Positions 7,213 to 50,022 of a stretch of 50,742 bases of DNA are shown one piece after another. The notes beneath the pieces were generated by a model. The model made no database searches, had not been told where the DNA came from, and worked only from the letters and a program-made list of their open reading frames with translations. The DNA comes from a virus: positions 1 to 50,742 of IMG/VR virus record IMGVR_UViG_3300014839_000010, one strand, 5' to 3'. Position numbers and translations under genes: made by a program. Numbering within the stretch: position 1 is the stretch's first letter; each line of letters opens with the position of its first letter.

Positions 7213-7433
7213 AATAAACCTCCTGGAGGAGCGAAGATCAGGGTAGGACCATTAATCTCTGGTTTCAGTGTCTGAGAAGATATATTGGGATTATCCCATA
7301 TCGGGCCGAGTAGTTCAATCATCCCATATTGATTAATATAACCGTATGATCCGATTACGCTCCCAAGTATCTGTTGAAGTTTAGGATGCCAATTTGGTCT
7401 AAAATAAACTTTCAATTCTTTCTTGCCTGTCAT
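7209..7433 (-). CDS. Small hub-adjacent protein (74 aa) with YFRPNW motif
   Basis: This is a 74-residue protein whose ATG overlaps the stop of the giant hub gene (TAATGA). It begins with a charged strand (MTGKKELKVYFRPNWHPKLQ) and ends with a Pro/Gly-rich tail (IFAPPGGLF). There is no transmembrane segment and no catalytic signature. The stretch YFRPNWHPKL resembles YFRPNWYARL found just after the intein in the 2410-residue protein, and the DNA beneath is nearly identical over 18 bases. Position between the hub and the wedge genes suggests a small baseplate component. The family is not recognised. Confidence 0.5.
   Translation of the reverse strand: MTGKKELKVYFRPNWHPKLQQILGSVIGSYGYINQYGMIELLGPIWDNPNISSQTLKPEINGPTLIFAPPGGLF
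7219..7224 (-). promoter_or_regulatory. Ribosome binding site deciding a TTG start
   Basis: AGGAGG on the minus strand, 6 bases before TTG at 7212. It is one of the strongest sites in the window and supports a non-ATG start for the 172-residue protein. Confidence 0.7.
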
Positions 7434-10400
7434 TATCCACCTATATTTAGTCTATTGCCGAGTATTTTATTTACAACTATCCCAGTGGCAGAAGCAATCC
7501 TGTTCCCCGCATTACCCAATGATTGCTTAAGTTTTTCCCAATCTGTATTATCTACTGCACCATATAGTCCTAAGGTCCAATTTTCTCCATTTCGCTTAAC
7601 AGGAAGCACAGATATTGGTTGTCTATATTTACTCCATTTAAACCAAGTATCCACTATATCGTCTGCAAATAAAGATACGAGGATAAGAGGTCCCTTACTC
7701 ATCAGGGTTTTTGCTAAGGGAAATGCCAATTTACTAGCACTAGAAGCTGCCACCTCACTAACTGGAACTGCTAATTTTTCAGCAGCTAATGTTAATTTAG
7801 CCATTCTCGATACTTCTGCACCTTCAAGAAACGCATTGTACCTAGCTGCTTCCATAGCATTTCCATAACTTGCATAACCTGATTTAGCTGCCGCTTTAAC
7901 CGCATCACTTCCTGATTTAGCTACATCCGCAACTGCAGTGGCAACTCTATTGGCGGCACTGACTCTAAGTGGATTTTTAATTAAATCAATAGCACCTTCA
8001 GTAACTTGCTTTCCAGCTCCATAACCGGGAACTGCATCTGGAGTAAAACGGTTCTCTATAGCCAATTCCATATTTTTAGTAAATAATGCAGTAGCATAAG
8101 CCCATAAGGCTTTTATCTGTGCCATACCTGAAAGATTATTATTGAAAACCAATAAGTTAGGAGTAATCTCAGTAATAAATCCAGTATCGTATGAGAAGGT
8201 TTGTACCACCTGTTCCACTTCTACAGCACCAAAAATTTGGTTATAAGTGTCAAAGATAAAGACTATATCATGCGGCTTAATACCTGGTCTACCCAGTATT
8301 ACTATCTCACCTTGATAAATCTTCTTCATCGACTTAACTAATAAAGAAAGAGCATATCTATCTCTTAACTTTATCTCACCCCAATCAATTGCATTATGGA
8401 ATACAAACGTACCCGTCTTGACATGTCTTGGTTCGATATCGTCATCAGCTTTCATTAGAGTAGATTCTTCATAATTTTCAAAACCAACTGATCCATCAAA
8501 GTTCGCATCAGAAGAATCCTTAGGAGCTATAACTTTTACAGCATTATTGGCCTCTCCATTACACCTCATGTTATTGGAAATAATATCATGTTCTGAAGTT
8601 ATAATATGATAATTTCTAAAAGGCTTCATATACTTCAGTAGATAGTCTAACGACTTTTCTAACTTTGGCTCATTACTCATTACTTCTTCATATTGTCTAT
8701 AGGGTTTGATAATAGTTTTTCGAAGAGCCTGCTCACTTAATAGTGCTGGGTTTGATCCTAGAGTATTCTTAACTCGATCATAATACACCCGATTACTTAA
8801 GACAGACCCAAGGAGTGTGGTATTAGTATTGTTCATGTTCTCGGATAAATTAGGTCCTCGATAGAGATATAGTTGCTCTGGATATCCGGCGAATAAAGTC
8901 ATTCGAGTATCATATGGAACAGCGGAGACTATTGTGTCGGGATGCCGGAGAGATAGTTCTTGTAGTGTATCCCAGGCAGTTTGTTTGTAAACAGTAAACG
9001 GAAAGTTGAATATTGAATGGTATATAGCCTTTGAGATTTTCCAGATTCCAACACCTACACCAATAACAAGACCAGCCGGAGGAAAGAAACTAGAAATCGC
9101 AAAACCAAGACTAACTGCAGTCATTGCTCCCCTGAATGCATCCCATCCACCAGAATACCCTATTGACGGAAAGAAAAGATTTTCAGCAAGACCTATACCA
9201 TTCAAACCGTTAAACCATGTTGATGGACCACAATCGGCAAAAGTAGAATGTCTTCCCTTGTCTCCAAAACTCTCTACTTCATTGCAGTCATTCTTTAACA
9301 ATCGAGCAGCTAAATCATTTGATTCAGAGTTGACAGAATAACTCCATTTGCCTTCCATTGTCGAACCTTTCTCATCAGCTATAAGTTCAACAGCAAGACT
9401 CTGACTTGTGATCTCTAGTACATCTGACCCACTTACTTCTGTCACCTTACCATTGAATTCCACGGTAAGATTATCGGGATCAGAATCATAGCCCAGACGT
9501 AACTGCACTCTAGTTCCCTGACTAAGCATCAATTGTTTTATCTTTTCATCTTTTTTGGGCATCAAGTTTTTATTAGAAACATAACCGCTACCCGTGACAG
9601 TGTGCGCATCATTAACTGTCCAGTTATCGTCTTTTTGTATGGTTGGAAAATCTGTATTAACAAGATCATTTTCTAAATTCGTCACATGGAGAATTAGTAG
9701 ATCAGGAGCAACATCCTTATTCTTTATTAATCTTATCTCTTTAACCTTATTCACATTATAAAAATCAGCAAAGTTCCTCCAGACATTCTCACCAGAATTC
9801 TTATTATCATATACAGATTCATCTAGGAAGTATAACTTAAAAGTGGGCATAGCCCTTCGCATGGTGTAAGATGTACTCTCTATATTCTTTATTGCTGCGG
9901 CCAAGGTAATCGTTTGTCCTTGAACCGAGAAATCATGGATAACTGAAGATTCTTTCTGATCTATCTTGTTACCATTACCCACAGCAAGAAGAGGAGGAGC
10001 TAGTTGGACAACCTTTTCGCTACCAGCTAATTTATTTGATGTTTTAGGAGAAGCCATTGCGTCAACCGTCATCTTATATACTTTACCAAATTCTTCAATA
10101 ACTGGAGCATATGCTGCCTGTCTTATATAATTAGAATATTGATCAGAATAATTCTGCCAATAAAAATCTGGATTCTTGCCACAAAGAGACCTAGGATCTT
10201 CTTTGTCTTTATTTGGTAACTTCATATCTGGATAGCACGGAGAGGCAGTAGTTGTATTGATGGTCGCCAATCTTTTAAGATACCACTGATAGGATGGTAA
10301 TGGATCAGAATTAAGTATATTGGTCAAGTTATTAGATATGGAAATAAGTTTCTTTTCTCTAGCATCCTTAAGGGTCAGCCATTCAGACCGTAGTTCTTTT

Positions 10401-11938
10401 GGAATCAGATTTATATCATCATTGGTCAAGAACTTCATTACATCTGTATTTCCACCCACTTCCCAAACCATATAGTTATTTAGATAATCTCGTAGCGGTT
10501 TTGCCACATCCTTGTACATCTTCTGATATGTACTAAAATGACCAGGAGTCATATTTTGAGGATAAGAAAGGGTAAACGATCTAAGGGAAACTCTAAAGTT
10601 GAAATCTTTTGCCACCTGTGCTAATGCATTTTTAGCTTCCTGTAAAATGTCTACACTCAACCCCTCATTAGCTAATCTAGCCTTGGCTTCATCAACTTCA
10701 ATATTTTCGGATAAAGAGATGTCAACAGTATTACAAAAGGGAAGATTCGGCACGGTGTTACTGTTTAGTTCATTTACAATACATCCAACAAAGTCATTAT
10801 TATCCTGATCAAATTCAATTGTTTTCTTATCTGCCCCTATATAAGTAAAGCTAGCATTTTTATATAAATCATATTTAGCCAAACGAAGTAATGGATTTCT
10901 GACATAGATAGGATCTCGTCTACTTATCTGCCGAAACTTAATAGAGTTCCTATTAACAGTTTCGAGGATATGGCTCAGTTCTGATAAGTTAGTAGAAGAA
11001 CAGGGTTTAAAACCGTCATCTATATCTACATCCGCATTAGCGAATAGGGAGATATTAATATCCATATTGGCCGCACCAAGAAACTGAGCGGTAGGAAGTG
11101 TATGTCCAAGGACTGGGATACTGGGCACATAAGTAGTAAGATTAAGTTCTAGTTGGACAGGGATCAATTCACCCTCATGTCTAGTGCCTTCCCCACTGAT
11201 ATAATATGACTGATAACGATAATATATATCGTCTCCCATTAACTTTGTAACATGTTTATCATCAAGTTTGGTCCATCCAGTTGTGTTCTTACCTAGAACT
11301 TTACTAAATTGATAATCCTTATAGATAATCTCTAATTCTTTTCCAAAACCATTAATCGCATTTATATATTTGTCATTAACAAAAGTACTATTCTGATAGA
11401 ATTCCTTATATGCAGGGCTTTCTTCTGGCGAATCAACTGGTCCATCCTTACCTACATATTTGAAGTTGGGGGAATATGGCCAATAGTTAAAAAACTTCAT
11501 TGTTATCAGACAGTTAACGGTGTCTGGACTCTGGGTATTATATGTAACTCTAATCCCCTGGATACATGCAGCTATATTCTTAACCTCTTCTGAATCCATT
11601 TCTCCAGCTAATTCTTTCCTAATCTTCTCGTTGTCAATCGAGCAAAATGGACACTTACGAGTTTGAATTATCAAGGGAGCCAACTGCTTATTAATAATAT
11701 TCTTGGCTTCTTGAGCTTCATTCATCGCAAAGTTATAGCCAGTAGCAAAAACAAGATTAAGCATTATAATTATATCTTTCTGTCCAGACTTAACCTTAAT
11801 AGGACTAGTAGACCTCAATGCTGGTATAGCAAAGTTATTCTCTCGTTTGATAACTTGGATACTCTGCGGCGGGATATCAAATACAATATCATTAATTCTA
11901 AAATAACCCTGTGGCTTAATCTCTTGAACAGTACTCAT
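7433..11938 (-). CDS. Giant baseplate hub protein (gp27 / late control D-like) with membrane-like segment
   Basis: This is 1501 residues from the ATG at 11938, which overlaps the TGA of the preceding gene (TGATG). A TTG one codon earlier is an extension artefact. Family signs of the baseplate hub are RVQLRLGYDSDPDNLTVEFN followed by GKVTEV near residues 800-830, TAWDTLQELSLRHPDTIVSA with YDTRMTLFAGYP near 990-1030, and IKPHDIVFIFDTYNQIFGAV followed by DTGFITEITPNLLV near 1215-1265. Unusually, a long hydrophobic stretch lies near residues 931-978 (PAGLVIGVGVGIWKISKAIY), inside the hub region. A CxxC pair (CPFC) lies near residue 97. The C-terminal 250 residues are Ala-rich and helical. Hub proteins join tube, spike and wedge. 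This one is far longer than the usual 300-500 residues, so extra domains are likely. Confidence 0.75.
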   Translation of the reverse strand: MSTVQEIKPQGYFRINDIVFDIPPQSIQVIKRENNFAIPALRSTSPIKVKSGQKDIIIMLNLVFATGYNFAMNEAQEAKNIINKQLAPLIIQTRKCPFCSIDNEKIRKELAGEMDSEEVKNIAACIQGIRVTYNTQSPDTVNCLITMKFFNYWPYSPNFKYVGKDGPVDSPEESPAYKEFYQNSTFVNDKYINAINGFGKELEIIYKDYQFSKVLGKNTTGWTKLDDKHVTKLMGDDIYYRYQSYYISGEGTRHEGELIPVQLELNLTTYVPSIPVLGHTLPTAQFLGAANMDINISLFANADVDIDDGFKPCSSTNLSELSHILETVNRNSIKFRQISRRDPIYVRNPLLRLAKYDLYKNASFTYIGADKKTIEFDQDNNDFVGCIVNELNSNTVPNLPFCNTVDISLSENIEVDEAKARLANEGLSVDILQEAKNALAQVAKDFNFRVSLRSFTLSYPQNMTPGHFSTYQKMYKDVAKPLRDYLNNYMVWEVGGNTDVMKFLTNDDINLIPKELRSEWLTLKDAREKKLISISNNLTNILNSDPLPSYQWYLKRLATINTTTASPCYPDMKLPNKDKEDPRSLCGKNPDFYWQNYSDQYSNYIRQAAYAPVIEEFGKVYKMTVDAMASPKTSNKLAGSEKVVQLAPPLLAVGNGNKIDQKESSVIHDFSVQGQTITLAAAIKNIESTSYTMRRAMPTFKLYFLDESVYDNKNSGENVWRNFADFYNVNKVKEIRLIKNKDVAPDLLILHVTNLENDLVNTDFPTIQKDDNWTVNDAHTVTGSGYVSNKNLMPKKDEKIKQLMLSQGTRVQLRLGYDSDPDNLTVEFNGKVTEVSGSDVLEITSQSLAVELIADEKGSTMEGKWSYSVNSESNDLAARLLKNDCNEVESFGDKGRHSTFADCGPSTWFNGLNGIGLAENLFFPSIGYSGGWDAFRGAMTAVSLGFAISSFFPPAGLVIGVGVGIWKISKAIYHSIFNFPFTVYKQTAWDTLQELSLRHPDTIVSAVPYDTRMTLFAGYPEQLYLYRGPNLSENMNNTNTTLLGSVLSNRVYYDRVKNTLGSNPALLSEQALRKTIIKPYRQYEEVMSNEPKLEKSLDYLLKYMKPFRNYHIITSEHDIISNNMRCNGEANNAVKVIAPKDSSDANFDGSVGFENYEESTLMKADDDIEPRHVKTGTFVFHNAIDWGEIKLRDRYALSLLVKSMKKIYQGEIVILGRPGIKPHDIVFIFDTYNQIFGAVEVEQVVQTFSYDTGFITEITPNLLVFNNNLSGMAQIKALWAYATALFTKNMELAIENRFTPDAVPGYGAGKQVTEGAIDLIKNPLRVSAANRVATAVADVAKSGSDAVKAAAKSGYASYGNAMEAARYNAFLEGAEVSRMAKLTLAAEKLAVPVSEVAASSASKLAFPLAKTLMSKGPLILVSLFADDIVDTWFKWSKYRQPISVLPVKRNGENWTLGLYGAVDNTDWEKLKQSLGNAGNRIASATGIVVNKILGNRLNIGG

Positions 11939-14900
11939 CAATGACCCCTATTTACCTTTCGATCAATATAATCTTGCGTCATATGCTGTCTAAAATCTTT
12001 TATATTCATGTTAACATTTGGAGTATTAAAATACGAGCTTAAAGATGATGGATCTGGAACATCGCTAACCCTACCCTTAATCTGAACTCTTTGCTTGCCC
12101 GGTATAGAATATTTCGTCCTAGGGAACCTAACTTGTTCCCTTACCCGACTAGAAGACTCATGTTCTTTGGTCGCAAGTGAAACTGGTACTTCTTTGGGCG
12201 AAGTTAAAAGAGTTGCAGCCAATCCGATCCCAGCAGCAGGTAGTAGACCATATTTACCAACATTCTTCAAGGCTCTACCAAATAGATTCTTTCCTTGAGT
12301 CGCCATAGCAGTTGCGTGTGGAGCGAGGATGGACTCACCCTTGGCGAGAGCTAGTTTAAGTTGTTCTTGACTAAGCCCATGCCCTACCCGTTGTGCGTCA
12401 AAGAAATGAGACATAGTCTCATCACTCGTTAACTCATTGTAAACATTAGCAAATCCATGCACATCTTCCTTTTTTACTTTACTAGATGAAACAATCCTAT
12501 TAAGCAGATCTTCTGAAAATTGACCACGTGCAGCACGTATCTCATTCCCCAATCCTGATTCCCCCTCTTTAAAGGTAATCATATCCAAGAATCCTCTTGT
12601 CCCAGCTATCCTCGATTCAGTACTCATATTACTATTTGGATTGATCGTTTCAAGTAGTTTGGGGAGAGTGTCTCCCAATAGGGCGTGTTCGGGCAAGACT
12701 TTCGATTTAAGCGCATTTTCCGCTATAAGTAGGCCCAAGGTATCAGTTCGATAAAACTTCCTCCATTCGTCAAATGTGGGTGATTTAGACAGTCCTGTAC
12801 GTAAGCCCATATGAACTGGTTCTAACGCAGTGGACAATAAACCTATCATTCCCTTTTCCGTTTTGCCCATAGCATAAGACATTTCATTAACCTTTAATGC
12901 CCCGCCTTCATAGTACATCTTGAAAGCATCCTGAGTTCCTTTGGTCTTGGGATTGTAATATGTGAAGATACTACTTAATGTATCCCTGTATGCCCTTCCA
13001 GCTTCTGCCGCAAAACCTTCTCCTCCGGCCATGGCTGCAGTTAAAGCTTTATCTTGATTTACCATACCAATAACAGTTAAAGGATCTCTATCAAAGTCCA
13101 ACCCCAATGAGGTGAGATAAGGTTTATGGCTTTGAAGACTCGTAACATATGCAGTACCGGGATTGTGACCCCTAGTTTTAGCGCCGAATTTCTCTGCACT
13201 TGTCAATAAACCGGGCACGACTCTGACCACACCCTCAGCCGGTTCTCTTGTAACGGCTATAGGAATACCAATAGTTTCAGCTAGTTCAACTGCTTTCCTT
13301 CCCTTCATTCTCCTTATCATTTTCTCTGCTGTCTCTGATCCAGAACCATATTTTTCATTTATCGCCTTAATTCTACCTTGATCAAGCATAGACTCCGATA
13401 TTTGAGAGGCATATCCCTTAGCTATATCCGGATTATGCATAGCGGCAACAAAGACTTCTTGGCCACCATATAGATCCCCTGCTCGCTTTCTTAAGGCTTC
13501 TTTTCCCCACTCGGCCATCCCAGGTAGTTCTGATTGAGCTTGGGCGAATACCGAACCCGATACCCGACCCTTAAATGACGATTTTACAAAAGTCTTACTA
13601 ATAGTCTTAATGTTTTCATCTAGTTCTGTCGCTGCGAATTGAAGGGCAGGAGTATTCTTGTTCCTATTTAATGCTAATTCTAAAATCCTTCTAGTCTGAA
13701 CATCTAGGTCTCCAGCGACTGTTTCTCCACCAATTGATATCCCCCGTCCAATATGTGGTTCTAATTCTTCGGAACTAGAAATAACAAGCCTATCTATTAA
13801 TTTGTGATGTTCAGTCTCTGCGGCGCTATCTCCCAGAGCTATAACTAAGTTATCTTTACCCCCAAGTTCACTTATTAAAGCTTTCCTTCTCTCTAGATTC
13901 TGATCGAATAATGCATCTAAAAGTTCTCCTTGTGTCGGAGAAATTAGGACCCCATTCCTATTGATCTTGGCATTTTGCAATCTAGACAGAGGTATAGCCT
14001 CTTTCGTTTTATCGGTCATAAGAGACAAATATTTCTGCATCTCTTCAGATTGAGAAGCTGGAGATGGACCAGAATAAGTCATACGGCTACGAATATCCGC
14101 AGCAACTTCTTCGGGATATGTTGCGGTGATTGCAGATAAAACTCTTTCAGATACAGAACCCATCTTATTGAATCCAGATTGTGAGCCATGTTGTTCTAAA
14201 CTTAATAGTATTGGATTAACGGCTATCTCTTCTCCGGCTGGTGGAAGTATTTCATCACCAATAAGTGCTGTTATATTTCTGTGTATGTCTTCACCCTCTA
14301 TCCCCTTAGATCTAGCCCAATTAAATAGACCTTCGATCTGTTTCTCTGTTCGTACTCCTTCAGGAACAGACCAACGCTTCCCATCCTTCTGTAAACCCAA
14401 GGCCCTAAGGACTTCTTCCGCTTCAGGAGTGTTCTTTCTTGCTAGTTTAGTCGACCAAATAGTAAGAGCATTAGAGAATTCTTTCTGGCCGATAACACCT
14501 TCAGATAGAAATTTAGCAGTGGGGTGTTCTCCAAGAAGCACATCTACATGCCCCCATTTCTTTTTATCTAAATCTTTTATCGAACTAGCTATTTTATGAT
14601 TATTAAGATAGTAATCATAATTACGTAATAGATTAGCCACGCTGAACGGAGTAGTATGGGCAGTACCCTTGAAACCAGAAAAGAACTTTTGACCTTCTCC
14701 AGCATCCCATTCAGAAGTTAGACTAACCGCTAGTTCTTTTTCTCGCTTACCCGGCAATAGACGAATATCGCGGAGATAAGAATTGACATCTCTATTCACA
14801 TTTTCATATTCTTCTTCTGCTGATTGGGCTGATCTACCGAGATTAAGACCCGTAACGTAATATTTCTTTCCACCCGCAGCAAGTCTACCGAGTTCCTCTG

Positions 14901-16557
14901 ATAATTCACCACGATTCATCATATTAAATAAATCTTGTTTAGTAAAACCAATTTGAGTGGCAGCAATATCACTCGTCATCTGATTTAATACCGTATCAAA
15001 CTCTTCACTTAGACCACTTCTCTTTACATGGTGAACATTAAGTTTATTTGAGGCGACAATGGACCCTTCTTGAATCAACATCTCTTCAGCTGCAAGATTG
15101 GCCCTATATCCTTCTAATTCCTTTTTCCTTTTATATAGTTTAGATATATGTTTTTTATGTATACCACCCATTCTTTCTAGTTCTAATCTTCTATCATCTA
15201 CCCCTAAAAGTTTTTCTTCATAATATGTAGTATCTTTGCCCTGACTTTTAAGGTCCTTTATCTTGCGGACAAAGTTACTTTGACCAGGAGGGTTAATCCC
15301 AAAATATGAGTTAGTTACGGGATTGACTTTAGCATAGTTGAGTGAAGCGTCTACCCCTTCTAAGATTTTTTCTTGTGCAGTTATTTGAGATTCAACTGAA
15401 CCTATCTCTTGGCGCAAGGCAGCTTGAAATTCTGCAAATTTGTCTGCATTAACTGAAGCAGCCTCAAATTCTCTTAACGACTTGGTTCCTAATGCTGAAC
15501 TGATTGTGGGTTTTTTACCACCTCTAATAAACTCAGTTGGACGTATACCTTTCTTGGACGTGAAATTAAACCCACCACCAATAAATTGTTCAACTAGAGA
15601 ACCTGGCAAGAATGCTTGTCCTTCCTCTGTCATCTCTCCAGTTCCAGGAGTTAATCCCTTATCCTTGATAGCTTGCAAGAGACGAGATTGTACAACATCT
15701 TTACGTACATCCCCCATAGGAGAGATATGAATTGTACTTTTCTTGAGGGCAGCAATATTTTCATTACGCCCAAAACCGCTCTCTTGTAGGGTTGCTATTT
15801 CTTTGTCACTTACTCCAGGAGTTCCCTCAAATATTAACTTCTGTTTCATTGTCTGATAAATATCTTTAGGGTTAGAAGTAGAGTTAAACTCACGAGGATT
15901 CTGGCCATATGGCATCAAAGATTTACTTAAGGTCTTTTCGTATTCCCCTAAAGTAGCTATATCGCTTTTAACAATCTCACCAGAATCAGATAGAACCCAA
16001 CTTGACGCATAAGTTCTTGGTGAGGGTTTAGCAATCAACACATCTCCACTTTGATTTACGGGAAGTACCGAGAATGTAGTTGTTTTAATACCTGATCTTG
16101 GAATCATATTAAATTCAGACAATCTACCATCAGCCGTATATACAGACCTAATATCTATATGCGTTCCATATCCATAATCCCCGGATATCTTGTCTATAAG
16201 TGATTGGGCCTTTGTTCGAAGATCGGGACTGAGTTCTCCCATCATCGACGAGAACTTACCCTTATCCGCCAGATTAGCATCAACAACTTTATAGGTTGGT
16301 TCTAACGAATCCACAAATTGTGCAACAGAAACGGGCTTGAAATCTACCTTATTCTTAATGAACTGAGAGGTAGGTGTTTTATATACATTAGTAAATTTAC
16401 TAATATAATTAGAGGGTTGAATGAAATTGGCCAAGGGTTTGCCCATCTCACGATGGGTTTTATAAAGACCATAACCAGTACCCGCAGCAAGTGCAAGCTT
16501 ACCCGCGAAAGAGAATATATCAGTTGAATCATTCTTGGTTTCTAAGGACGAGATCAT
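11938..16557 (-). CDS. Giant virion protein of unknown function (1539 aa), tail-associated
   Basis: This is a 1539-residue protein. Its ATG overlaps the TGA of the 2410-residue gene (ATGA) and its end overlaps the hub gene, so the three giants are probably translated as a coupled set. Near the N-terminus (residues 15-35) lies a Gly/Ala hydrophobic helix (FAGKLALAAGTGYGLYKTHR), and near the C-terminus another (GKYGLLPAAGIGLAATLL). Likely coiled coils occur near residues 355-405 (FQAALRQEIGSVESQITAQE) and 450-492 (KLYKRKKELEGYRANLAAEE). The middle is mixed helical with many charged residues. I see no nuclease, lysozyme or polymerase motif. Length, hydrophobic ends and position between the tape-measure slot and the hub suggest a second tape-measure-like, tail-lumen or ejected protein. 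This is inference. Confidence 0.5.
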   Translation of the reverse strand: MISSLETKNDSTDIFSFAGKLALAAGTGYGLYKTHREMGKPLANFIQPSNYISKFTNVYKTPTSQFIKNKVDFKPVSVAQFVDSLEPTYKVVDANLADKGKFSSMMGELSPDLRTKAQSLIDKISGDYGYGTHIDIRSVYTADGRLSEFNMIPRSGIKTTTFSVLPVNQSGDVLIAKPSPRTYASSWVLSDSGEIVKSDIATLGEYEKTLSKSLMPYGQNPREFNSTSNPKDIYQTMKQKLIFEGTPGVSDKEIATLQESGFGRNENIAALKKSTIHISPMGDVRKDVVQSRLLQAIKDKGLTPGTGEMTEEGQAFLPGSLVEQFIGGGFNFTSKKGIRPTEFIRGGKKPTISSALGTKSLREFEAASVNADKFAEFQAALRQEIGSVESQITAQEKILEGVDASLNYAKVNPVTNSYFGINPPGQSNFVRKIKDLKSQGKDTTYYEEKLLGVDDRRLELERMGGIHKKHISKLYKRKKELEGYRANLAAEEMLIQEGSIVASNKLNVHHVKRSGLSEEFDTVLNQMTSDIAATQIGFTKQDLFNMMNRGELSEELGRLAAGGKKYYVTGLNLGRSAQSAEEEYENVNRDVNSYLRDIRLLPGKREKELAVSLTSEWDAGEGQKFFSGFKGTAHTTPFSVANLLRNYDYYLNNHKIASSIKDLDKKKWGHVDVLLGEHPTAKFLSEGVIGQKEFSNALTIWSTKLARKNTPEAEEVLRALGLQKDGKRWSVPEGVRTEKQIEGLFNWARSKGIEGEDIHRNITALIGDEILPPAGEEIAVNPILLSLEQHGSQSGFNKMGSVSERVLSAITATYPEEVAADIRSRMTYSGPSPASQSEEMQKYLSLMTDKTKEAIPLSRLQNAKINRNGVLISPTQGELLDALFDQNLERRKALISELGGKDNLVIALGDSAAETEHHKLIDRLVISSSEELEPHIGRGISIGGETVAGDLDVQTRRILELALNRNKNTPALQFAATELDENIKTISKTFVKSSFKGRVSGSVFAQAQSELPGMAEWGKEALRKRAGDLYGGQEVFVAAMHNPDIAKGYASQISESMLDQGRIKAINEKYGSGSETAEKMIRRMKGRKAVELAETIGIPIAVTREPAEGVVRVVPGLLTSAEKFGAKTRGHNPGTAYVTSLQSHKPYLTSLGLDFDRDPLTVIGMVNQDKALTAAMAGGEGFAAEAGRAYRDTLSSIFTYYNPKTKGTQDAFKMYYEGGALKVNEMSYAMGKTEKGMIGLLSTALEPVHMGLRTGLSKSPTFDEWRKFYRTDTLGLLIAENALKSKVLPEHALLGDTLPKLLETINPNSNMSTESRIAGTRGFLDMITFKEGESGLGNEIRAARGQFSEDLLNRIVSSSKVKKEDVHGFANVYNELTSDETMSHFFDAQRVGHGLSQEQLKLALAKGESILAPHATAMATQGKNLFGRALKNVGKYGLLPAAGIGLAATLLTSPKEVPVSLATKEHESSSRVREQVRFPRTKYSIPGKQRVQIKGRVSDVPDPSSLSSYFNTPNVNMNIKDFRQHMTQDYIDRKVNRGH

Positions 16558-19500
16558 CTAATGTGTCCACCCTGTCTTAAGTGTTGGTCGATTTCTTTTG
16601 ACCTATCCTGATCTAGGTCTATATCTACAGAAGCACTATATCTAGAACCAATTGAAATGTCTACATTTTGAACGCCCATAGAGGCTACATGATCGTATGT
16701 ACTTTGTAGATCATTTCTCTCTGGTATTTTAACATATTTGACAGCTTCTTCCAAGTATGGTTTTCGACCCAATGCTCTAACCCTATTCTCCCATAGGTTA
16801 TAGTCATGATAGTCTAATCCCTCATTAATCAAATACTTAAGTTGTACATCCTTCATGTCCACATCAGACCGCCAACCTATCCAATCATCTGGCGGTAAAG
16901 TATCTTGGGACATGAATTGATCAACATCAGACTGGCGCCTAGCTCGCATCTGGATTCTTCTATTGGTTAATTCTTTACGCATTGACTCAAGTTCTTCAGG
17001 AGATCCTTCAACCTCACCATTCTTCATCCGATTATACAATTGCTTATCCCACTGAGCCTGATAGAAATCTTGCATATTCTCTGGGACAAGACTTTGTATC
17101 TTCTCTTTCTGCGTATCTGGAGCATCCAGGAAAGCTTGGAAGAATGATCTTTCACTCTTGGGCATAGACATCATAATCTCATATGGATATGAGTAGGGGT
17201 CAGTTCCGGCAAGTGTATTGTGCTTCATTTTAATCGCCGCAGACATACCCCAAGAATCACCCCTCGATTTGGCTTCTCTCTCAAGATGTTCTGCCTTGGC
17301 ATACTTCAACTTATCAAAATAGTCTTCTATCTCTCTCTTCTGTTGTATCTTCTCTGGAATCCCATTCCAGCCCAATCTATGTTCTAGTGTTTCTGCGGCT
17401 GGCTCTATGAAGTGCTCAATGGGTTTTTCCCATAACTTAAAGTCTCTGCCATAAATCTGCTCTTGGTATTGGGTCATTGCATCAGATGCAGGTAGAAATT
17501 TGTGAGCAGGAGACAAAGGGAGTAACTGTTCTAGTGGGTTAGCTTTAGCCAGATCAGTTAATGCCGCCGCATATGAAGCTATAATTCCTGCATTCTCTGG
17601 GTCTCTAAACTCTCTTAATCTTCTCTTTTCTTTTAGTTCTTGTTCTGTCTGAGTATAGATCTCTCGTTCTCTATCATTTAGGTTCCCGCTCTTATTCAGT
17701 TCTTGCATTTCGGCTTGAGACTGCCTAAACTCATGCGAGTACATAGCCACATCTGCAAGGATTTTATATTTATGAGCTAATGGGTAATTCTCTGGTTCCA
17801 TACCTTTAAGTTCCGGATATCTAGCCTCATATCCCTTACCCGGCAAACGATATTCCCCTTCATCAACCTTCGTATAGGGGTCGCCCTGATGGTAGTTCAA
17901 GTAGTAATCTTCGCCTGGCATCCACGAAGGCATATTGTTCGGTAGTGGATTTACGTATTCTACATCTGCTGTCCTTCTAGGAATGATACGACGAATTGCT
18001 TCTGTTAACCCAAATCCACCGCCAAGATTAAGACCCCAGAAGTCTCTTTGAGTGCTAGTTATGTCTGATCCAGGTTCTAAGATGGGGGTATCGGAGTAAA
18101 GTTCTTTCCCACCAGTGACATTTTTTGCAACTGCTGAAGCAATGAACCCTCTCAAACCAGCAGCTTCATATCCCGTATACCACTGCTGTTGCAATTGCTG
18201 CCTATAGTCATATGGACTAATCGCACCACGTTGTGGTAACCCACCTAATTCATATGACGGAGCAAATTCTTTATTCTCAGGTAATCCACCCGGTTCTTGG
18301 AATTCAGGATTATAAACCCTAGGAGGCTTAAGCAATCTACCTAAGGTCATTTCATAAAGAGGACCAAAGATACCCATAGCTTCTCCAGAAGGTCCAGTAA
18401 CCGGATATGGTCTATCTTTTCTTAGTCTATCTTCTACTTCATATGGGTTCAGAAACTCTCTAGCCCATCTCTTAAGTGGAAATTCGTCAGCATTATCTTC
18501 ATAGATTGATTTCTCTTTATATCCAGACATCAATCGTGCGTACCAATTAGGTCTAAAATAAGAAATCTGGCTATTATGCATTAAGAATCCTGGTCCAACA
18601 AAACTATTAGAGCCAGGTACTTCAAAGTCATATACTATACCATTATATTCTTCTATTTTTATACTATTTATTTTTATTGCAAATCCACTTTCAAGTTCTG
18701 TATATCCACAAGTAGTTTTTGATAAATTTAAACTGTTTATGGGGACTTCTTTAATCGGAATGATCTTGTTTAACTTTTCTGATGCAGCAGAAGGTATTAA
18801 AATTTCTTGGGTAGAATACCCATCTTTTGTAATGGACTTTTTCCCAAGAAAAGAATATATTTTAATTTTTGTTAGTAAAAGTTGGAATTGTTTCATCATA
18901 GGAGTAGGATGCATTCCTATCCTTATTGAATTTCTCTTAATAGACCCATCACCAGCAATAAATCCGTCAACAAGACCATAAATAAAATAGTTGTTAGCAA
19001 ACATTATCTCTTTACTAAATATCTTATCCCCATTAGTGGCAGTTCCTGGGATTAGTTTTCTTATGAGTTCTGTTAGGATTGATGAATTAATAGTAATTTC
19101 AATTCCATTTTCACTGGTACTTCTTATATCTGATTCCAATTTGAAAGTATTGTAGATATATTCTTTAATAAAATTTATGTAGTTGTTTTCGTTTTTATGA
19201 AAAGCAAACTTAATAGAATTATCGATTATGCATCCTTCAGCTGCATAAAAACCACAAAATTTGCCGAAATCATAGGTCAAATCTATAGTATCTATATTCG
19301 GGAAGTCAAGTTTTTTCCTTCTGGGTTGTCCACCCTTTTTGCTTAATTTAGTCAGATCAAGAGACCTATACCTTATCTGCATCTCGGTTAAATTATTCTC
19401 TTTCATTATCGATAATAATTTCACTCTACGATCTATAGATCTGCACCTCAATCCTTTCCACAGGACTATTTCTTTGTCAATAGTTGTATTATATTTGCAT

Positions 19501-22500
19501 TGTCTTTCTTTGGAATACCAACCATCAGACATTTTTTCCTGGTTTATTATCTCTCCTATATTAATAGATTGTAAATTTTCTAATGGTGAATAATAAGGAA
19601 TGAATAGTCTAGTCGTTGATAGATTTTTTATTTTGTCGATTCTTTCCCAAAAAATAGAAACATTAGACCTAGAGGGACGAAAACAATGAGGGCATGTGAC
19701 TACTAGAACATTATGATTGCCGGTTAATCCAACTTCTGCATCTCTATTAAAAGTTGTTGATACATAATATACTGGTTCATTTGTCTCTCTTGTGATCGTT
19801 TTTGCTATCGTATACTTCTTTCCGTCAATACCAATAATTTCATCCCCAGTTCTTATATCTTTAGCTTTTTTTCTATCCCCAATGAAAGTCAAAATACTAG
19901 ATTCAGGAGTAAGGCACCCCTTATATGGTGTTATACCCGCTTCCCACCATCTACCCTTATAGACAGGAACTTCTTTCTTGCCGGAATATTCCGCTTCTAG
20001 TTCAGCCGGTGTGTCCTCCGTCCCAATACCAGCCGCGAGTAATGGTAAACCAAGTGCTCCACCGATGAGCATACCCCATCTTCCCCATCTCCCCATGCGA
20101 TTATATTTACCACCGAACCACGGAAGTTTAGCAATAGTCTTCGGCATTTCAAGCATTTCTGCTTTCGCAACAGCCTTGTGCAGTTCACTTAATCTATCCT
20201 TGCCGAATAATTCTTTACCTAATGTGTAGGCTTCTGCGGCCATATAGCCTGTCAAAAATCCAGATCCAGCTAATCCAATAAATGGCGCAATACCTGTCGA
20301 TCCGGGATATTGCTCTTCTATTCCTTTCCTTAGACTCGTAAGACCAGTCATTTGGGAGACATGAGCAGCAGTTATGTGTGCTGTCTTCGCTGTCCAAGCT
20401 AGAGCGCCAGTTAGCCCCGCATCACCAGGTGCAGTGCCAGAAGGAAAAACTGTTTTGACCGCCCAATTAGCCAAACTGTACGCAGCGGGTAATCCGATCA
20501 TTAACGGTAGTGCTTGCTTGGCATGGCGAGCCATAAGCTGGATTATGTTTCCCTGCAATCCAACTTCGCCGCCAACACCAAATTTAGGCAATAACTTACC
20601 AACTGTTGACAGGACTCCCCTACCTGATCCTGTTGCCTTAAGGACATCTTCTGCTATTTTAAAAGGATCATCCATTAACCTAAGGTATTTAGAGAAGGTC
20701 TCATGGGCGAAAGCATGAGCCATTTTCCCATACAGCCCCGCTTCCGATTCTGCCCCAACAATCAAGAATGGATATTTCTCCGGAGATATAGTCCTAAGTC
20801 GATCCTTGCCAAGAAATGAACTTATATTTTCTGTTCTGATAAGTGATTCAGTGAACTGAGTAGCCCGAGTTGAAATTGCTGGATCATGTATACGACTAAA
20901 CAATCTGGCATGTTCGAATAAGGGTATTGTCTCATTCGAATATCTCTTAACACCATAAACCTTACCACCCTCGTACCTAACTGTTTCAATTCCCTCCGTT
21001 ATGAGGTCTCTACCCGTAATCTTGTTGAGATAATTTTTATAAAGTTCAGAACCCTGATCTGCAATATTGACACTGAAAGATCCTTCCCTAAGTACCGATC
21101 CAGACATCATTGTACTTAGACTTAATGTTCTTGGTATACCCCCTAGTGTGTATTCTAGCCGACGCACTGCATTGTAGGCTAAGTCTTTATACCTAGCTTG
21201 TGTTCTGCCAATACCAATAACTGATCCATGATAAGATAGATCTGATAGATTTATCTTCTTACCAAATATATTAACCGGTCGATTCCATAGAAAAGCTGAT
21301 ACACCTAGGGTAAGTCCTATACCGCCGACTAAAGACCAGTCAATATCCGTACTTGATTGATAATCAGGATACTTATACCCAGATCCGAAATCCGTATATG
21401 AAGAACGTCTATTACCATTCCATGTGTGGGGTAGACCCTCTATTGTGTTGTATTCGTCATCCTTACCAGAGAATCTATTAGTCTGGTATATTGCAAAGGC
21501 AACATCGTCAGCCATTCTTGCAATACCCTGCCATCCAGAACCAAAGCCAGTCCTACCCAATCTTTGTTTGCCAAACCAACCATGCTTGAGACCCTCTATG
21601 GTATTATAGTCATCATCCTTTCCGGATATCGCATTACTAAAACCAGTATAGAGAACCGCAGCAGCTGCAAGGGCGATACCACCCATGGCAACTTTAGGTC
21701 CAAATTTACGGAATAGACTTTCTTCTTGAACGGTCCCCCTTAATGCGGACTCCATTGTTTTGAATTCTGGAGCCATATGCCGACGTGCTCTTGAGAGGAT
21801 CTTCTCATTAGACAATGTATATTTGGCCGTGGAGTTTGCAAAGAAGTCATTCTCTAGATACTCATTGAATTGGTCTAAAGTAGTAAGATCCTTACCCCCT
21901 TGATAGGTATATCCATGTTTAGATAATTCTTCTACACCAGTCTGTATTCTCTTACGTAAAGCTAGAACTTTTAATGTAGTTTGATGTTTCCCAATAGCAG
22001 ATACGAGATCTTGTTCTTGTTTGCCCAATACTACTTGGGTTGGATTCTTTAACTTTTCGATTAATGCGGCGAGCCTAGGTGCAACCTGTTGAGCAAGCCA
22101 AGCATCACCAGTAGATGAATGTATCTCTTTTGTTGTAAGTAGGTATTTGGATATGAAGTCTAAATTAGAACCTGTGAAGATGTCGTATGTTTTAGGTATG
22201 TACCCACGATCTTGCATCAGGGCATAAGCATACTTCGTCATCTCCTGAGTATCGATTACGTGTCTGCCCTTCAGCGCCTTTATCTTGTTCTGCTCTAATA
22301 CTCCTTTAAAATAATTATACTTTTCATGTCCACGACGAAGTTGCTCTTGGAATATCGCCTCAGGCAGATTACCACGTCTAAACTTTAACTTCTCTACATT
22401 CTGCCGACTTAGGGCACTAGGTGTAAGACCAACCCCTGCTCTATATCTTATATTCTTTATGTGTGCTTTTTCTCTAGCAATAATCCCCTTATATTCTGGA

Positions 22501-23786
22501 GACATAAGAGAGTATTCTGGAGATCTATCATTTATAAAACCAAATTCATTAAGAAATCTATTCTCGAATATTGCATTATGTATGGTGATTACTTGTTCGT
22601 TTAATAAACTTTGTTTGAATATTCTTTTAGCTTTTTCTTCTTCAGCTGTGACCCTAGTTAAAGAAACTAGGTTAGTCATCAATTGTTTTTTCTTGGCAAC
22701 TTCTAGGGCAGTCTTATCTATATACCCCGCAACTGGTTTGGTGAAGTTTGCACCACTCGAAACAAGGTCAGCAATTATCTTCTTGGCCACAGGCCCAGCA
22801 GCAGCTAATTCAGCTTCTGTCCTAATCAAGTTTAACTCAAGCGCCCTACTTCCGCTAACAATACCTATTTGTACAATCTTGTCACCCCGATGTGGATGAA
22901 GTCCTCTGGTCTCAATATCAAGTGCAGTTATGCCCGTAAACAGATTAGCAGCCTGACTAGCACGCCGATGCATCTCACCAATACGCAGGGGCGATCCGAA
23001 AGGGGTTACTTCCTTTCTCTTCTCACTGGACCATCCCTCGGGAAGACCAGAGATTCTATTTAATAAGTCAATACCATTGATTGGAGAATTAGAGTTAAGT
23101 TTGTGTGTACTCAGATTGTGAATGGCAGAGATGTATTCTTCAGATAACTTATTGAGATTGCTAATATTGGCTTTCAGTTTATCTATGGCCCCAGCCGCTT
23201 CTTCTTCCTTGGCCTCCAAAGACGAAGTCATTGCCAACTGGCTTTCGTCTAGCTTACCTTCCTTTAACTCTTGTCTTATCTTCTCTCTGACCTTATTAAG
23301 TTTAGCTATGTCGAAGTTAAAAAGATCTTCACTCTTCTTTACTTCATATATATATTGTTTAGAAGGGTCTTCTCTGGAGACGAATTGCAGGAATCCGACT
23401 TCCTGATCCATCATATTGAGATAAAAGTTTAACTGAGAAACGTATTTTTGAGGTGGGCCATTTTGTAGATATTCAGCGAATTTAGATTCAGATACTGTCT
23501 TAATATCACCAACATAACCTTCTTTGGTTATTAAGTCGATGTGGCCAGTAATCTGATTCTTCTCATCCAATACGAAATGCTCAGCATCGGTTATTCTCTT
23601 TTCTTTATAACCTAATGCCTGTATGATTTCGTGTAAACGGGTGCCTAATCCAGCCGCTGAACCAAGTGATTGATCTTCATCGCTATCATCGGATGTAGGA
23701 GTAGTTAAGTATTTGTATATCTCTTTCTCGGACAGACCTATCTGAGAAGCTCGATATAGCTGGTATAGTGGGACATTAGAAGCCAT
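16554..23786 (-). CDS. Giant tape-measure-position protein: PD-(D/E)XK nuclease + DEDDh exonuclease + intein
   Basis: This is a 2410-residue precursor, 1962 residues after intein removal. Residues 40-135 form a RecB/Cas4-type PD-(D/E)XK nuclease: H52 (TRLHEIIQ), D84 (GHIDLIT), D94-x-K96 (GDIKT), Q118-xxx-Y122. Residues 282-565 form a DEDDh 3'-5' exonuclease: D290-x-E292 (ALDIETRGL), HNAIFENRFL at 403-412 with Glu408 where Asp is usual, D512 (VIDTQ), and H556-x4-D561 (HSSTGDAW). Hydrophobic segments lie near 700-716, 815-835, 1092-1112, 1165-1185 and 1236-1254. Two tandem SGKDD-YNTIEGL repeats lie at 721-803. The intein occupies 1291-1738. The C-extein is Pro/Tyr-rich with charged helices. The gene follows the two tail chaperones, where contractile phages encode the tape measure. 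The nuclease motifs are seen directly. The tape-measure role and ejection into the host are inferred. Confidence 0.75.
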   Translation of the reverse strand: MASNVPLYQLYRASQIGLSEKEIYKYLTTPTSDDSDEDQSLGSAAGLGTRLHEIIQALGYKEKRITDAEHFVLDEKNQITGHIDLITKEGYVGDIKTVSESKFAEYLQNGPPQKYVSQLNFYLNMMDQEVGFLQFVSREDPSKQYIYEVKKSEDLFNFDIAKLNKVREKIRQELKEGKLDESQLAMTSSLEAKEEEAAGAIDKLKANISNLNKLSEEYISAIHNLSTHKLNSNSPINGIDLLNRISGLPEGWSSEKRKEVTPFGSPLRIGEMHRRASQAANLFTGITALDIETRGLHPHRGDKIVQIGIVSGSRALELNLIRTEAELAAAGPVAKKIIADLVSSGANFTKPVAGYIDKTALEVAKKKQLMTNLVSLTRVTAEEEKAKRIFKQSLLNEQVITIHNAIFENRFLNEFGFINDRSPEYSLMSPEYKGIIAREKAHIKNIRYRAGVGLTPSALSRQNVEKLKFRRGNLPEAIFQEQLRRGHEKYNYFKGVLEQNKIKALKGRHVIDTQEMTKYAYALMQDRGYIPKTYDIFTGSNLDFISKYLLTTKEIHSSTGDAWLAQQVAPRLAALIEKLKNPTQVVLGKQEQDLVSAIGKHQTTLKVLALRKRIQTGVEELSKHGYTYQGGKDLTTLDQFNEYLENDFFANSTAKYTLSNEKILSRARRHMAPEFKTMESALRGTVQEESLFRKFGPKVAMGGIALAAAAVLYTGFSNAISGKDDDYNTIEGLKHGWFGKQRLGRTGFGSGWQGIARMADDVAFAIYQTNRFSGKDDEYNTIEGLPHTWNGNRRSSYTDFGSGYKYPDYQSSTDIDWSLVGGIGLTLGVSAFLWNRPVNIFGKKINLSDLSYHGSVIGIGRTQARYKDLAYNAVRRLEYTLGGIPRTLSLSTMMSGSVLREGSFSVNIADQGSELYKNYLNKITGRDLITEGIETVRYEGGKVYGVKRYSNETIPLFEHARLFSRIHDPAISTRATQFTESLIRTENISSFLGKDRLRTISPEKYPFLIVGAESEAGLYGKMAHAFAHETFSKYLRLMDDPFKIAEDVLKATGSGRGVLSTVGKLLPKFGVGGEVGLQGNIIQLMARHAKQALPLMIGLPAAYSLANWAVKTVFPSGTAPGDAGLTGALAWTAKTAHITAAHVSQMTGLTSLRKGIEEQYPGSTGIAPFIGLAGSGFLTGYMAAEAYTLGKELFGKDRLSELHKAVAKAEMLEMPKTIAKLPWFGGKYNRMGRWGRWGMLIGGALGLPLLAAGIGTEDTPAELEAEYSGKKEVPVYKGRWWEAGITPYKGCLTPESSILTFIGDRKKAKDIRTGDEIIGIDGKKYTIAKTITRETNEPVYYVSTTFNRDAEVGLTGNHNVLVVTCPHCFRPSRSNVSIFWERIDKIKNLSTTRLFIPYYSPLENLQSINIGEIINQEKMSDGWYSKERQCKYNTTIDKEIVLWKGLRCRSIDRRVKLLSIMKENNLTEMQIRYRSLDLTKLSKKGGQPRRKKLDFPNIDTIDLTYDFGKFCGFYAAEGCIIDNSIKFAFHKNENNYINFIKEYIYNTFKLESDIRSTSENGIEITINSSILTELIRKLIPGTATNGDKIFSKEIMFANNYFIYGLVDGFIAGDGSIKRNSIRIGMHPTPMMKQFQLLLTKIKIYSFLGKKSITKDGYSTQEILIPSAASEKLNKIIPIKEVPINSLNLSKTTCGYTELESGFAIKINSIKIEEYNGIVYDFEVPGSNSFVGPGFLMHNSQISYFRPNWYARLMSGYKEKSIYEDNADEFPLKRWAREFLNPYEVEDRLRKDRPYPVTGPSGEAMGIFGPLYEMTLGRLLKPPRVYNPEFQEPGGLPENKEFAPSYELGGLPQRGAISPYDYRQQLQQQWYTGYEAAGLRGFIASAVAKNVTGGKELYSDTPILEPGSDITSTQRDFWGLNLGGGFGLTEAIRRIIPRRTADVEYVNPLPNNMPSWMPGEDYYLNYHQGDPYTKVDEGEYRLPGKGYEARYPELKGMEPENYPLAHKYKILADVAMYSHEFRQSQAEMQELNKSGNLNDREREIYTQTEQELKEKRRLREFRDPENAGIIASYAAALTDLAKANPLEQLLPLSPAHKFLPASDAMTQYQEQIYGRDFKLWEKPIEHFIEPAAETLEHRLGWNGIPEKIQQKREIEDYFDKLKYAKAEHLEREAKSRGDSWGMSAAIKMKHNTLAGTDPYSYPYEIMMSMPKSERSFFQAFLDAPDTQKEKIQSLVPENMQDFYQAQWDKQLYNRMKNGEVEGSPEELESMRKELTNRRIQMRARRQSDVDQFMSQDTLPPDDWIGWRSDVDMKDVQLKYLINEGLDYHDYNLWENRVRALGRKPYLEEAVKYVKIPERNDLQSTYDHVASMGVQNVDISIGSRYSASVDIDLDQDRSKEIDQHLRQGGHIR
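18573..19916 (-). mobile_element. Intein with LAGLIDADG homing endonuclease (448 aa)
   Basis: In-frame protein-splicing element at residues 1291-1738 of the giant tail protein. Block A starts at Cys1 (CLTPESSILTF, then IRTGDEIIG). Block B has the T-x-x-H motif (GLTGNHNVLVV). Two LAGLIDADG-like helices flank the endonuclease core (FGKFCGFYAAEGCI and FIYGLVDGFIAGDGSI). Block F is NGIVYDFEVPGSNSFVGPGF and block G ends in His-Asn before Ser+1 (LMHN/S). All residues needed for splicing are present, so it is probably active. The element looks more AT-rich and more Ile/Lys/Asn-rich than the flanking extein, which fits horizontal acquisition. The extein junction is PYKG/SQISYF. Homing would copy the element into intein-free alleles of this gene. 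Confidence 0.92.
21378..21626 (-). repeat. Two-copy SGKDD-YNTIEGL protein repeat
   Basis: Residues 721-751 and 773-803 of the giant tail protein share the pattern SGKDDxYNTIEGLxHxWxG, then R-x3-TxFGSG in copy 1 and a closely similar ending in copy 2. The copies occupy 21534-21626 and 21378-21470. They lie between two hydrophobic segments. Their function is unknown; a ligand-binding or assembly motif is possible. Confidence 0.85.
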
Positions 23787-24427
23787 TATCTATTCTGCCT
23801 CTTATTCCATCTGGGATCTTTTTCTTCGTGAACATTATTTGCTTCATCTACTTGTTCTCTATACAGTTGTTCATTAGATGTATCCGAACCCATCTTGTCT
23901 AACATTTTAAATACTTCATGAGAATTATCTGTAACTTCATTCTTCTTTTTAAATTCAAATGATCTTTTCAATATGGTTTCAGATAGGGCTAGCCTATTAA
24001 GAACATCAGACCAGGATAGGTCTTTTATATCTTCGGGTTTATAGGCGGGGAAAGCTTCACAAATAGCCAATACAATTTGATTGTCTATATAGTTGACAGA
24101 TTCCCTCGCCGTCATAAACTCTTGATTAGCCTGGTCGAGACTATCCTCGTCCATAAAGGTACAACCCGATAAGAATATAATAGATTGAGAAATGCTTGTA
24201 ACAATACCAGCATCCATATATTGGATTCCAACTGCACAGTTGTGTTCCAACACACACATCTCCCAAATTATTTCTTCAATCTCGGTCTGAAGACTCGGAT
24301 ATTTTATAAGTAGAGAAGAAAAAGTACGATAGTCACCCCAAGTCAAAGGGCGGAATAATACCTTATAATCTTCAAATTCGAATAGATAAAGATCTTTATT
24401 CTCTTTAAAAGATTCATAGAGGTTCAT
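23786..24427 (-). CDS. Tail assembly chaperone, second copy
   Basis: This is a 213-residue acidic protein placed directly before the tape-measure-position gene, with which it shares TAATG. The N-terminal part (YLFEFEDYKVLFRPLTWGDY) matches in pattern the upstream 173-residue protein (EYYVFRPLKRLEWRNL). Both continue with a helix, a Cys/Glu-rich stretch and a segment of the type xAGxxxSxxxxIxxxS. Tail assembly chaperones coat the tape measure during tube growth. In many phages the pair comes from one gene by ribosomal frameshift, but here the two frames are separated by 8 bases. The C-terminal 60 residues are charged and probably disordered. AGAGG lies about 4 bases before the ATG. Confidence 0.65.
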   Translation of the reverse strand: MNLYESFKENKDLYLFEFEDYKVLFRPLTWGDYRTFSSLLIKYPSLQTEIEEIIWEMCVLEHNCAVGIQYMDAGIVTSISQSIIFLSGCTFMDEDSLDQANQEFMTARESVNYIDNQIVLAICEAFPAYKPEDIKDLSWSDVLNRLALSETILKRSFEFKKKNEVTDNSHEVFKMLDKMGSDTSNEQLYREQVDEANNVHEEKDPRWNKRQNR

Positions 24428-24435: not shown

Positions 24436-24957
24436 TTATAGCTTACGCACGCAAGCTAATGCTTCCTGTGGAGCTAAGAAATTGGAAGCCTGTAGTATAA
24501 CTTCATATAGAGAACTAACTGATCCAGCTAAACCATTATTGATAACCATTGGATCTAATTTTGGCCAGAGGACCGACCTAATACAAATAGCTTCTTGACG
24601 CTTAGACTCATCTGGTTGTTTAGCTAATTGAGCAGTTAGATTACGCCATTCTAATCTCTTTAATGGCCTAAACACATAATACTCATCAGAATCAAACCCA
24701 ATGGTAAAGATCTTACCATGGACCTTCTTCCACTCTTCTATCATTTCATCACTAGGTTTCCCACCTAAAGCCTTAAACCCGTTCATGATTATATCTTCTT
24801 GGATTTGTTTCTGTTTGATCTTTTCAACAAGTTTTTCTTCTTCTGGAGTTAGATCACTCTCGACAGGATGTTCTTCTACCACAGGATCAAGATTAAGGTC
24901 ACATACACATTCGCCCGTTAATAGGCTCTTACCACATAATTCACATACATTTTCCAT
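24436..24957 (-). CDS. Tail assembly chaperone, first copy, with N-terminal zinc-ribbon-like motif
   Basis: This is a 173-residue protein. The first 20 residues contain C5-x2-C8 and C17-x-C19, a possible small zinc site. A Glu/Lys helix follows near residues 38-60 (LTPEEEKLVEKIKQKQIQED). The C-terminal half (FRPLKRLEWRNLTAQLAKQP, then CIRSVLWPKL and GLAGSVSSLYEVILQASNFL) is related in pattern to the next gene. The position after the tube genes and before the tape-measure slot is the classic chaperone position. GGGAG lies 6 bases upstream of the ATG. A candidate promoter lies in the gap before it. The role is inferred from family pattern and gene order. Confidence 0.65.
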   Translation of the reverse strand: MENVCELCGKSLLTGECVCDLNLDPVVEEHPVESDLTPEEEKLVEKIKQKQIQEDIIMNGFKALGGKPSDEMIEEWKKVHGKIFTIGFDSDEYYVFRPLKRLEWRNLTAQLAKQPDESKRQEAICIRSVLWPKLDPMVINNGLAGSVSSLYEVILQASNFLAPQEALACVRKL

Positions 24958-49542: not shown

Positions 49543-50022
49543 TTATAAACCGCGCAATTGTCTGTAATAAGCTATTCTTTCCGCCAACGTAGACGACTGC
49601 AGTGTAGAGGAAGATCCCCTATTACTTGGAAGTAAAGCAAACCCAGCCGCACCAACACCTACTCCTGCATACATATTTCTTGCGCTTATAAACGGTGTTG
49701 TTCTATTTTTTAAACCCCTCAGAACAGCAGCTCTAGTCCTGCCACGATCTCCGGGACTCATTCCTATCACATTCTTCGATCTAAAATCGTTTATACCATT
49801 TCTTAATGCTGAATTCCTATAGGGCCTGGCAAAAGCGTTTATGGTTCCACTAATTGCACCAATTCCAGCACCTACAGCCGCACCACCCAAGGCGTTTCCG
49901 ACCACAGACCGCATATCATCACCGGCAAGAGCAGAAGTTGCCGCACCAGCGATAGCTCCGACAGCAGCACCTGTTAAGGCGTTACTTGCTGCCCTCATCA
50001 TTCTTCCGACTACTCTTCCCAT
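49543..50022 (-). CDS. Glycine-zipper hydrophobic protein (159 aa)
   Basis: This is a 159-residue protein. The N-terminal 65 residues are Gly/Ala-rich with small-residue spacing (LTGAAVGAIAGAATSALAGD, NALGGAAVGAGIGAISGTIN), the pattern of glycine-zipper helices that pack in membranes. A basic middle follows (RNGINDFRSKNVIGMSPGDR, GRTRAAVLRGLKNRTTPF) and another Gly/Ala stretch (GVGVGAAGFALL). It overlaps the HNH gene by 41 bases. GAGG lies about 9 bases before the ATG. It resembles phage proteins thought to insert into membranes or to be packaged in the head. No catalytic motif is seen. Confidence 0.5.
   Translation of the reverse strand: MGRVVGRMMRAASNALTGAAVGAIAGAATSALAGDDMRSVVGNALGGAAVGAGIGAISGTINAFARPYRNSALRNGINDFRSKNVIGMSPGDRGRTRAAVLRGLKNRTTPFISARNMYAGVGVGAAGFALLPSNRGSSSTLQSSTLAERIAYYRQLRGL

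Follow-up and report, generated by a model that had tools for sequence, protein, structure and literature searches.

A giant tail-region protein with predicted nuclease domains, beside an RNA polymerase beta'-like protein, that a contractile-tail virus may deliver at the start of infection

Long-tailed phages are believed to eject their tape measure proteins into the cell envelope, and that of Thermus phage P23-45 is fused to an RNA polymerase (PMC10770324). In Bacillus phage 0305phi8-36, according to the available part of its published description (PMC2147016), orf143 and orf144 encode chaperonins, orf146 the tape measure and orf147 the hub. Mass spectrometry identified 55 virion proteins, and in the same part of that source the only products near the tape measure given as non-structural are those of orf143 and orf144, so that orf145 would code for a virion protein. 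An SNase domain on the hub of the related module BtI1 was also noted there in 2007, and was left unexplained in the text available.

The DNA analyzed here, called the window, is the whole 50,742 nt stretch of IMG/VR record IMGVR_UViG_3300014839_000010. Its gene A, which like the other tail genes and domains described below lies on the minus strand, is a stop-free frame of 2410 codons running from 23786 to 16554, and was recognized as coding for a giant tail-region protein by its open frame and C-terminal homology. The start codon overlaps the stop codon of the upstream gene by one base (TAATG), and an AGAGG sequence is found about 12 bases 5' of the ATG. The earlier note on this DNA had described a protein of 2410 residues, positioned directly after two tail chaperones and before the hub. 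The frame is intact, yet its length is inflated by a predicted intein of 448 aa, and the spliced product would be 1962 aa. Two chaperone-sized genes do lie directly upstream. By gene order they occupy the tail-chaperone position; the first (24436-24957) matches phrog_29362 (function unknown), while the second (23786-24427), placed as in ME3 and 0305phi8-36, gave no convincing family match in profile searches. The hub is not the next gene, however, as gene B (11938-16557) intervenes between gene A and the baseplate hub (7433-11941, 1502 aa; PHROG 20474, 8809 and 4930). The five hydrophobic segments described previously were all recovered by a Kyte-Doolittle scan (19-residue window, >1.2), at residues 699-717, 815-833, 1092-1110, 1166-1184 and 1238-1256 (20019-21692). 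The C-terminal region of gene A (residues 1739-2410; 16557-18572; NPLPNNMPSWMPG ... RLPGKGYEA) is conserved (alignments A1 and A2), and is common to ME3_35, MTATph1 CDS0026, KLEB27-3 gp031/gp033 and IMG/VR contigs. A chimeric assembly around gene A was considered unlikely, given that the gene order is that of the relatives and the base composition of the N-terminal part is ordinary.

In the ME3 record, ME3_35 is given as similar to 0305phi8-36 YP_001429636.1, and the hub, ME3_37, as related to YP_001429638.1. The gene A homologues of ME3 and KLEB27-3 carry virion or structural annotations. Because gene A is homologous to ME3_35 and has the same order of neighbours, it is assigned by sequence to the orf145 type of virion protein, a link to 0305phi8-36 that runs through the ME3_35 record and gene order. 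The earlier note had placed it at the tape measure position, and it does directly follow the chaperones, but orf146, published as this lineage's tape measure, is at the position of gene B in the available description (PMC2147016), which leaves the label for gene A contestable.

The predicted intein of gene A (residues 1291-1738; 18573-19916) carries a LAGLIDADG domain and was detected with Pfam (Intein_splicing, E = 1e-5; LAGLIDADG_3, E = 3e-5) and delimited by alignment of the exteins. It begins with Cys, ends in His-Asn, is followed by Ser and contains Hint blocks, as is typical of inteins, and it is AT-rich, unlike the N-terminal part of gene A. Its excision in silico restores a single unbroken alignment with ME3_35 (junction TPYKG/SQISYF). 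Among relatives, whose sequences are given as L numbers, LAGLIDADG inteins are also present in gene A of L013 (7370-12736) and L030 (9884-14953), four residues from the window site and in the same conserved motif. The gene A of KLEB27-3 (L004:9046-16199) has an HNH-containing insertion, probably an intron, that splits the NPIRNQMPDW motif.

The first 190 residues of gene A (23217-23786) are well supported by sequence comparison as a PD-(D/E)XK nuclease domain of the RecB/Cas4 type. They match a PHROG exonuclease (E = 2e-4) and a Cas4-domain family (E = 4e-4), and align with phage RecB/Cas4-like exonucleases in profile-profile comparison (hhalign probability 97.5, E = 7.4e-12). When 26 whole records of relatives were searched, a stand-alone homologue of 300 aa was retrieved (E = 6.9e-28). 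These matches go far beyond chance and bear out the nuclease proposed for this region, and every residue named in the earlier note for the two N-terminal domains (H52, D84, D94-x-K96, Q118-x3-Y122, D290-x-E292, HNAIFENRFL at 403, D512 and H556-x4-D561) was located where it had been placed. The active-site pair H52-E53 (23628-23633) aligns to FHE of the stand-alone homologue, and D84 ... D94-x-K96 (23499-23537) to its GYAD...DIK; together with Q118 the core motifs are present. Many Cas4/RecB-type phage exonucleases have Fe-S cysteines, which the wider fold family does not need; they are invariant in the exonuclease homologues (alignment A8) and absent here, residues 1-565 of gene A containing no Cys at all.

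The more distant matches to this domain are RecB/Cas4-like exonucleases of Thermus phage phiFa, MTATph1, another relative and KLEB27-3, and their genes lie beside a replicative helicase gene (phiFa) or a DNA-polymerase-III-like gene (MTATph1 and the other relative). Such a location in replication modules would fit an N-terminal region that is cleaved off during maturation to serve inside the cell as an ordinary nuclease of replication or recombination. We regard this as very improbable, as the region is translated in frame within a late tail operon and no cleavage site is known.

When viral contigs were scanned with the PD-(D/E)XK pair, only the stand-alone gene was returned. It lies in a late operon of the phage of L013 (L052:9932-10831, the record behind L013), next to genes for small glycine-rich hydrophobic proteins and a terminase gene, and its product has an N-terminal hydrophobic helix. 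The proximity of terminase genes, together with the example of T4 gp4, a virion-associated REase-fold nuclease needed for packaging (PMC7824862), would suit nucleases that work in the infected producer cell while tails or heads are being assembled, and not after ejection; they might trim DNA where head and tail join, for example, or clear nucleic acid from the growing tail. We consider this unlikely, since the window domain is fused to a tail protein and not to a packaging protein, and unrelated nuclease folds recur on tail components (gene A, gene B and the hub). In the window, a cluster of glycine-rich small hydrophobic proteins with an HNH-like gene is found upstream of the terminase (49543-50730), and resembles the cluster around the stand-alone gene.

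A DnaQ-type DEDDh exonuclease domain with two insertions is moderately supported at residues 285-570 (22077-22934). Three motif blocks are present in the order LDIETRG...DKIVQIGIV, VITIHNAIFENRFLNEF and NLDFISKYLLTTKEIHSSTGDAWLAQQVA, an order which, with the two insertions, we take to be that of DnaQ. Motif I is D290-I-E292 (22911-22919), motif II is HNAIFE (residues 403-408; 22563-22580) and motif III is H556-x4-D561 (22104-22121); D290, E292, D512, H556 and D561 are all in place. Pfam RNase_T matched the domain alone with E = 0.0019, and with E = 5e-4 after removal of the two insertions, both under the curated cut-off, and the match was absent in a shuffled control of the domain. In the exonuclease recognized earlier, the acid of motif II is Glu408, where Asp is usual. 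A DEDDh fold, which would be RNase H-like, is taken as likely from these sequence features, and full activity is uncertain. Structure prediction of residues 1-605 with AlphaFold2, from an alignment of three sequences, gave a pLDDT of 38 and no usable model; phmmer searches of the PDB found no real match to residues 1-565 or to the trimmed DEDDh domain, and no relative was found when viral contigs were scanned with the 565-aa N-terminal region alone.

Nuclease domains are also present on the tail genes of relatives. In a tree of gene A proteins the window clusters with ME3, L016 and L040, and among those three only L016 (8891-11557) has a gene A nuclease, a seemingly catalytic SNase domain (Pfam E = 4e-13) that retains DGDT, R, D-x-P-E and KR. 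The N-terminal PD-(D/E)XK and DEDDh pair was found in the window only among the sampled relatives, and is lacking in ME3 and L040 of its closest clade. In a sister clade (KLEB, MTAT and L019-L026), a DEDDh exonuclease is carried by gene B in nine of nine distinct phages, two of the nine sequences ending at a contig edge. Its catalytic residues are invariant in the seven that were aligned, and its PDB matches are TREX2 and polymerase exonucleases (L019; L020-L026; L004:16223-23524; L003:15234-19163). When compared with profiles of these gene B domains, the window DEDDh domain aligned at motif I alone, so they appear to have been acquired separately. In a set of 32 proteins that included 18 hubs, three matched SNase; besides gene A of L016, SNase or SNase-type loci are the ME3 hub (L011:17080-21645) and the hub of L024 (19662-22328). 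Judged from these sequences, nuclease domains of unrelated folds look to have been acquired several times by adjacent tail genes, and their recurrence favours a shared task over chance.

Activity does not appear to have been kept in every case. A third PD-(D/E)XK copy, inserted at a different place in gene A of L020, has lost its D-x-K, and about ten gene A members of the KLEB/MTAT clade have an SNase-like domain in which the catalytic motif is missing. With Glu408 of the window, these degenerate copies would be compatible with domains that have little or no catalytic activity and instead bind DNA or play a structural part, for instance by securing the genome end inside the tail. However, the catalytic residues of the PD-(D/E)XK domain are all retained in both the window and the stand-alone homologue, as are those of the gene B DEDDh domain in every aligned member of the sister clade, and loss or weakening of catalysis is, in our view, an unlikely explanation.

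Gene B (1539 aa) occupies the tape measure position of 0305phi8-36 and, on its own, had no family match in Pfam. Against a profile of nine relatives it aligned over 429 columns (hhalign, E = 4.5e-5), and in an alignment of ten homologues, the window included, a D-x-D-x-D motif (DFDRD in the window, 13084-13098) and an upstream Arg are invariant. The homologue of L036 (12396-16937) was modelled with AlphaFold2, with pLDDT values of 70-90 across much of the core, and the best 50 PDB matches listed by Foldseek were all to RNA polymerase, nearly all of them bacterial beta' chains (E from about 3e-4 upward, with a probability close to 1; because only part of the chain corresponds, overall TM-scores were low). 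The profile of the relatives is co-linear with Escherichia coli RpoC through RFRQNLLGK, NRAPTLHR and NADFDGD (hhalign, E = 0.0036), with shuffled, reversed and RpoB controls at 0.37 or worse. A sister-clade profile reached E = 0.034 to RpoC, again at this motif, and matched the first clade with E = 1.6e-11, and the viral-structure matches of the family include an uncharacterised protein of ME3 (E = 1e-8). The residues expected of a beta' double-psi barrel, DxDxD with an upstream R-x-P, are represented in the family, and on these grounds gene B is counted among the RNA polymerase beta'-like proteins, as a putative two-barrel polymerase.

Other relatives with an RNA polymerase beta'-like protein in this position include L030, L035 and L005. 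The MTATph1 gene B is shortened and followed by a gene annotated as a transposase (L003:19260-20747), and DxDxD was not present in the region of it that was read. Glycine-rich, low-complexity sequence accounts for prion matches of the gene B profile, which were dismissed as artefacts. A second, beta-like barrel was not found in gene A by HMM, and a likeness to NPLGVPSRMNIG seen by eye, which would have made gene A the beta-like partner, was rejected when hhalign gave E = 0.31, not improving on controls, and aligned a different region.

Taken as a whole, the locus is best explained by an orf145-type virion protein that has acquired nucleases and is co-ejected with the gene B product, a reading to which we give a probability of about one half. 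Against it count the restriction of the N-terminal pair to the window among the relatives sampled, the degenerate copies elsewhere, Glu408 in the DEDDh domain and the low-confidence model of residues 1-605. Gene A would be a giant virion protein of a 0305phi8-36/ME3-type contractile tail module whose N-terminus gained the PD-(D/E)XK and DEDDh domains, with the C-terminal region and hydrophobic stretch performing tail or ejection work. It would be made beside gene B, joint action being probable, and both products would be carried within the tail or head-tail channel and ejected on tail contraction, before or along with the genome. The hydrophobic segments would then span or sit in the cell membrane. 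Nucleic acid at the entry site or in the cytoplasm would be the substrate of the nuclease domains, and gene B would meanwhile start early transcription. Delivery into the host can reasonably be inferred because the homologues are virion proteins by annotation and neighbouring tail genes have repeatedly and independently acquired nucleases; joint ejection of the two products is proposed by analogy with P23-45 and crAss-like phages. Possible targets are DNA of the host or of plasmids, nucleic acid linked to defence and the incoming genome ends, and we favour host-side or defence-related nucleic acid over processing of the virus's own genome. Contractile-tail phages of this group probably load their giant tail proteins with nucleic-acid enzymes that are ejected at entry, and the window virus may likewise carry such enzymes in its tail and deliver them as infection begins.

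Action outside the cell was also weighed, in which the nucleases, at the tail tip, would break down extracellular DNA or that of biofilms and so open a path. The hubs of the group carry SNase and cell-wall hydrolases, as indicated by the protein set above and by the available part of PMC2147016, but gene A is at a position of the tail-lumen or tape measure type, not among fibre genes, and an RNA polymerase-like neighbour needs the cytoplasm, which makes this improbable. Within co-ejection, we put forward only tentatively the more specific proposal of an ejected, nuclease-armed transcription complex of the 0305phi8-36/ME3 type, in which the gene A nucleases and gene B as a virion RNA polymerase would clear competing or hostile nucleic acid and begin transcription. 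The same proposal covers the sister clade, where the polymerase protein itself carries the predicted exonuclease as a fusion.

If co-ejection is correct, the delivery of nucleases would be added to transcription among the enzymatic tasks of tail proteins, and the nucleases would act before any phage gene expression, when host defences meet the incoming DNA. The orf146-type gene, called a tape measure since 2007, would need re-annotation, and virion RNA polymerases would seem to reach the contractile-tail jumbo phages of the 0305phi8-36/ME3 group. The cultured relatives KLEB27-3 (a Bacillus phage), MTATph1 (a Moorella phage) and ME3 would provide a concrete set for testing.

A search of the available literature did not turn up a tail protein that combines PD-(D/E)XK and DEDDh domains, but the separate elements have precedents, and related cases are partly described in PMC10770324, PMC7886860 and the available text of PMC2147016. 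Phage RecB/Cas4-like exonucleases such as Thermus phage phiFa_19 share the PD-(D/E)XK core (GHID ... DIKT ... Q-x-N-x-Y) with the window, but are stand-alone replication or recombination genes and have a cysteine cluster. The 0305phi8-36/BtI1 tail module has the same order of chaperones, orf145, orf146 and hub, and BtI1 offers a further likeness in the SNase domain of its hub; domain swapping has also been noted in the module. It differs in that orf146 is named as the tape measure, and the available description, which is the sole basis of the comparison, mentions neither a nuclease on orf145 nor a beta'-like RNA polymerase on orf146 (PMC2147016). In crAss-like phages, as in the window, there are several giant proteins, one with the RNA polymerase DxDxD, and in some phages one of them has a PDDEXK domain; the RNA polymerase is a virion component, and inteins and introns are common (PMC7886860). 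Their structural block is P22-like, with gp4- and gp10-like tail proteins (PMC7886860), whereas the window has a contractile-tail module (sheath, chaperones, hub) with, in addition, a DEDDh domain, and no sequence relation was found between their giant transcription-block proteins and gene A. P23-45 gp96 is likewise a giant tail protein bearing a nucleic-acid enzyme, with a DFDGD-type beta' motif in a tail-module protein and a proposed role during genome entry (PMC10770324). In that phage the RNA polymerase lies within the tape measure itself, the tail is non-contractile and a nuclease is not described (PMC10770324), whereas in the window the predicted nucleases are on gene A and the RNA polymerase-like domain is on the next gene.
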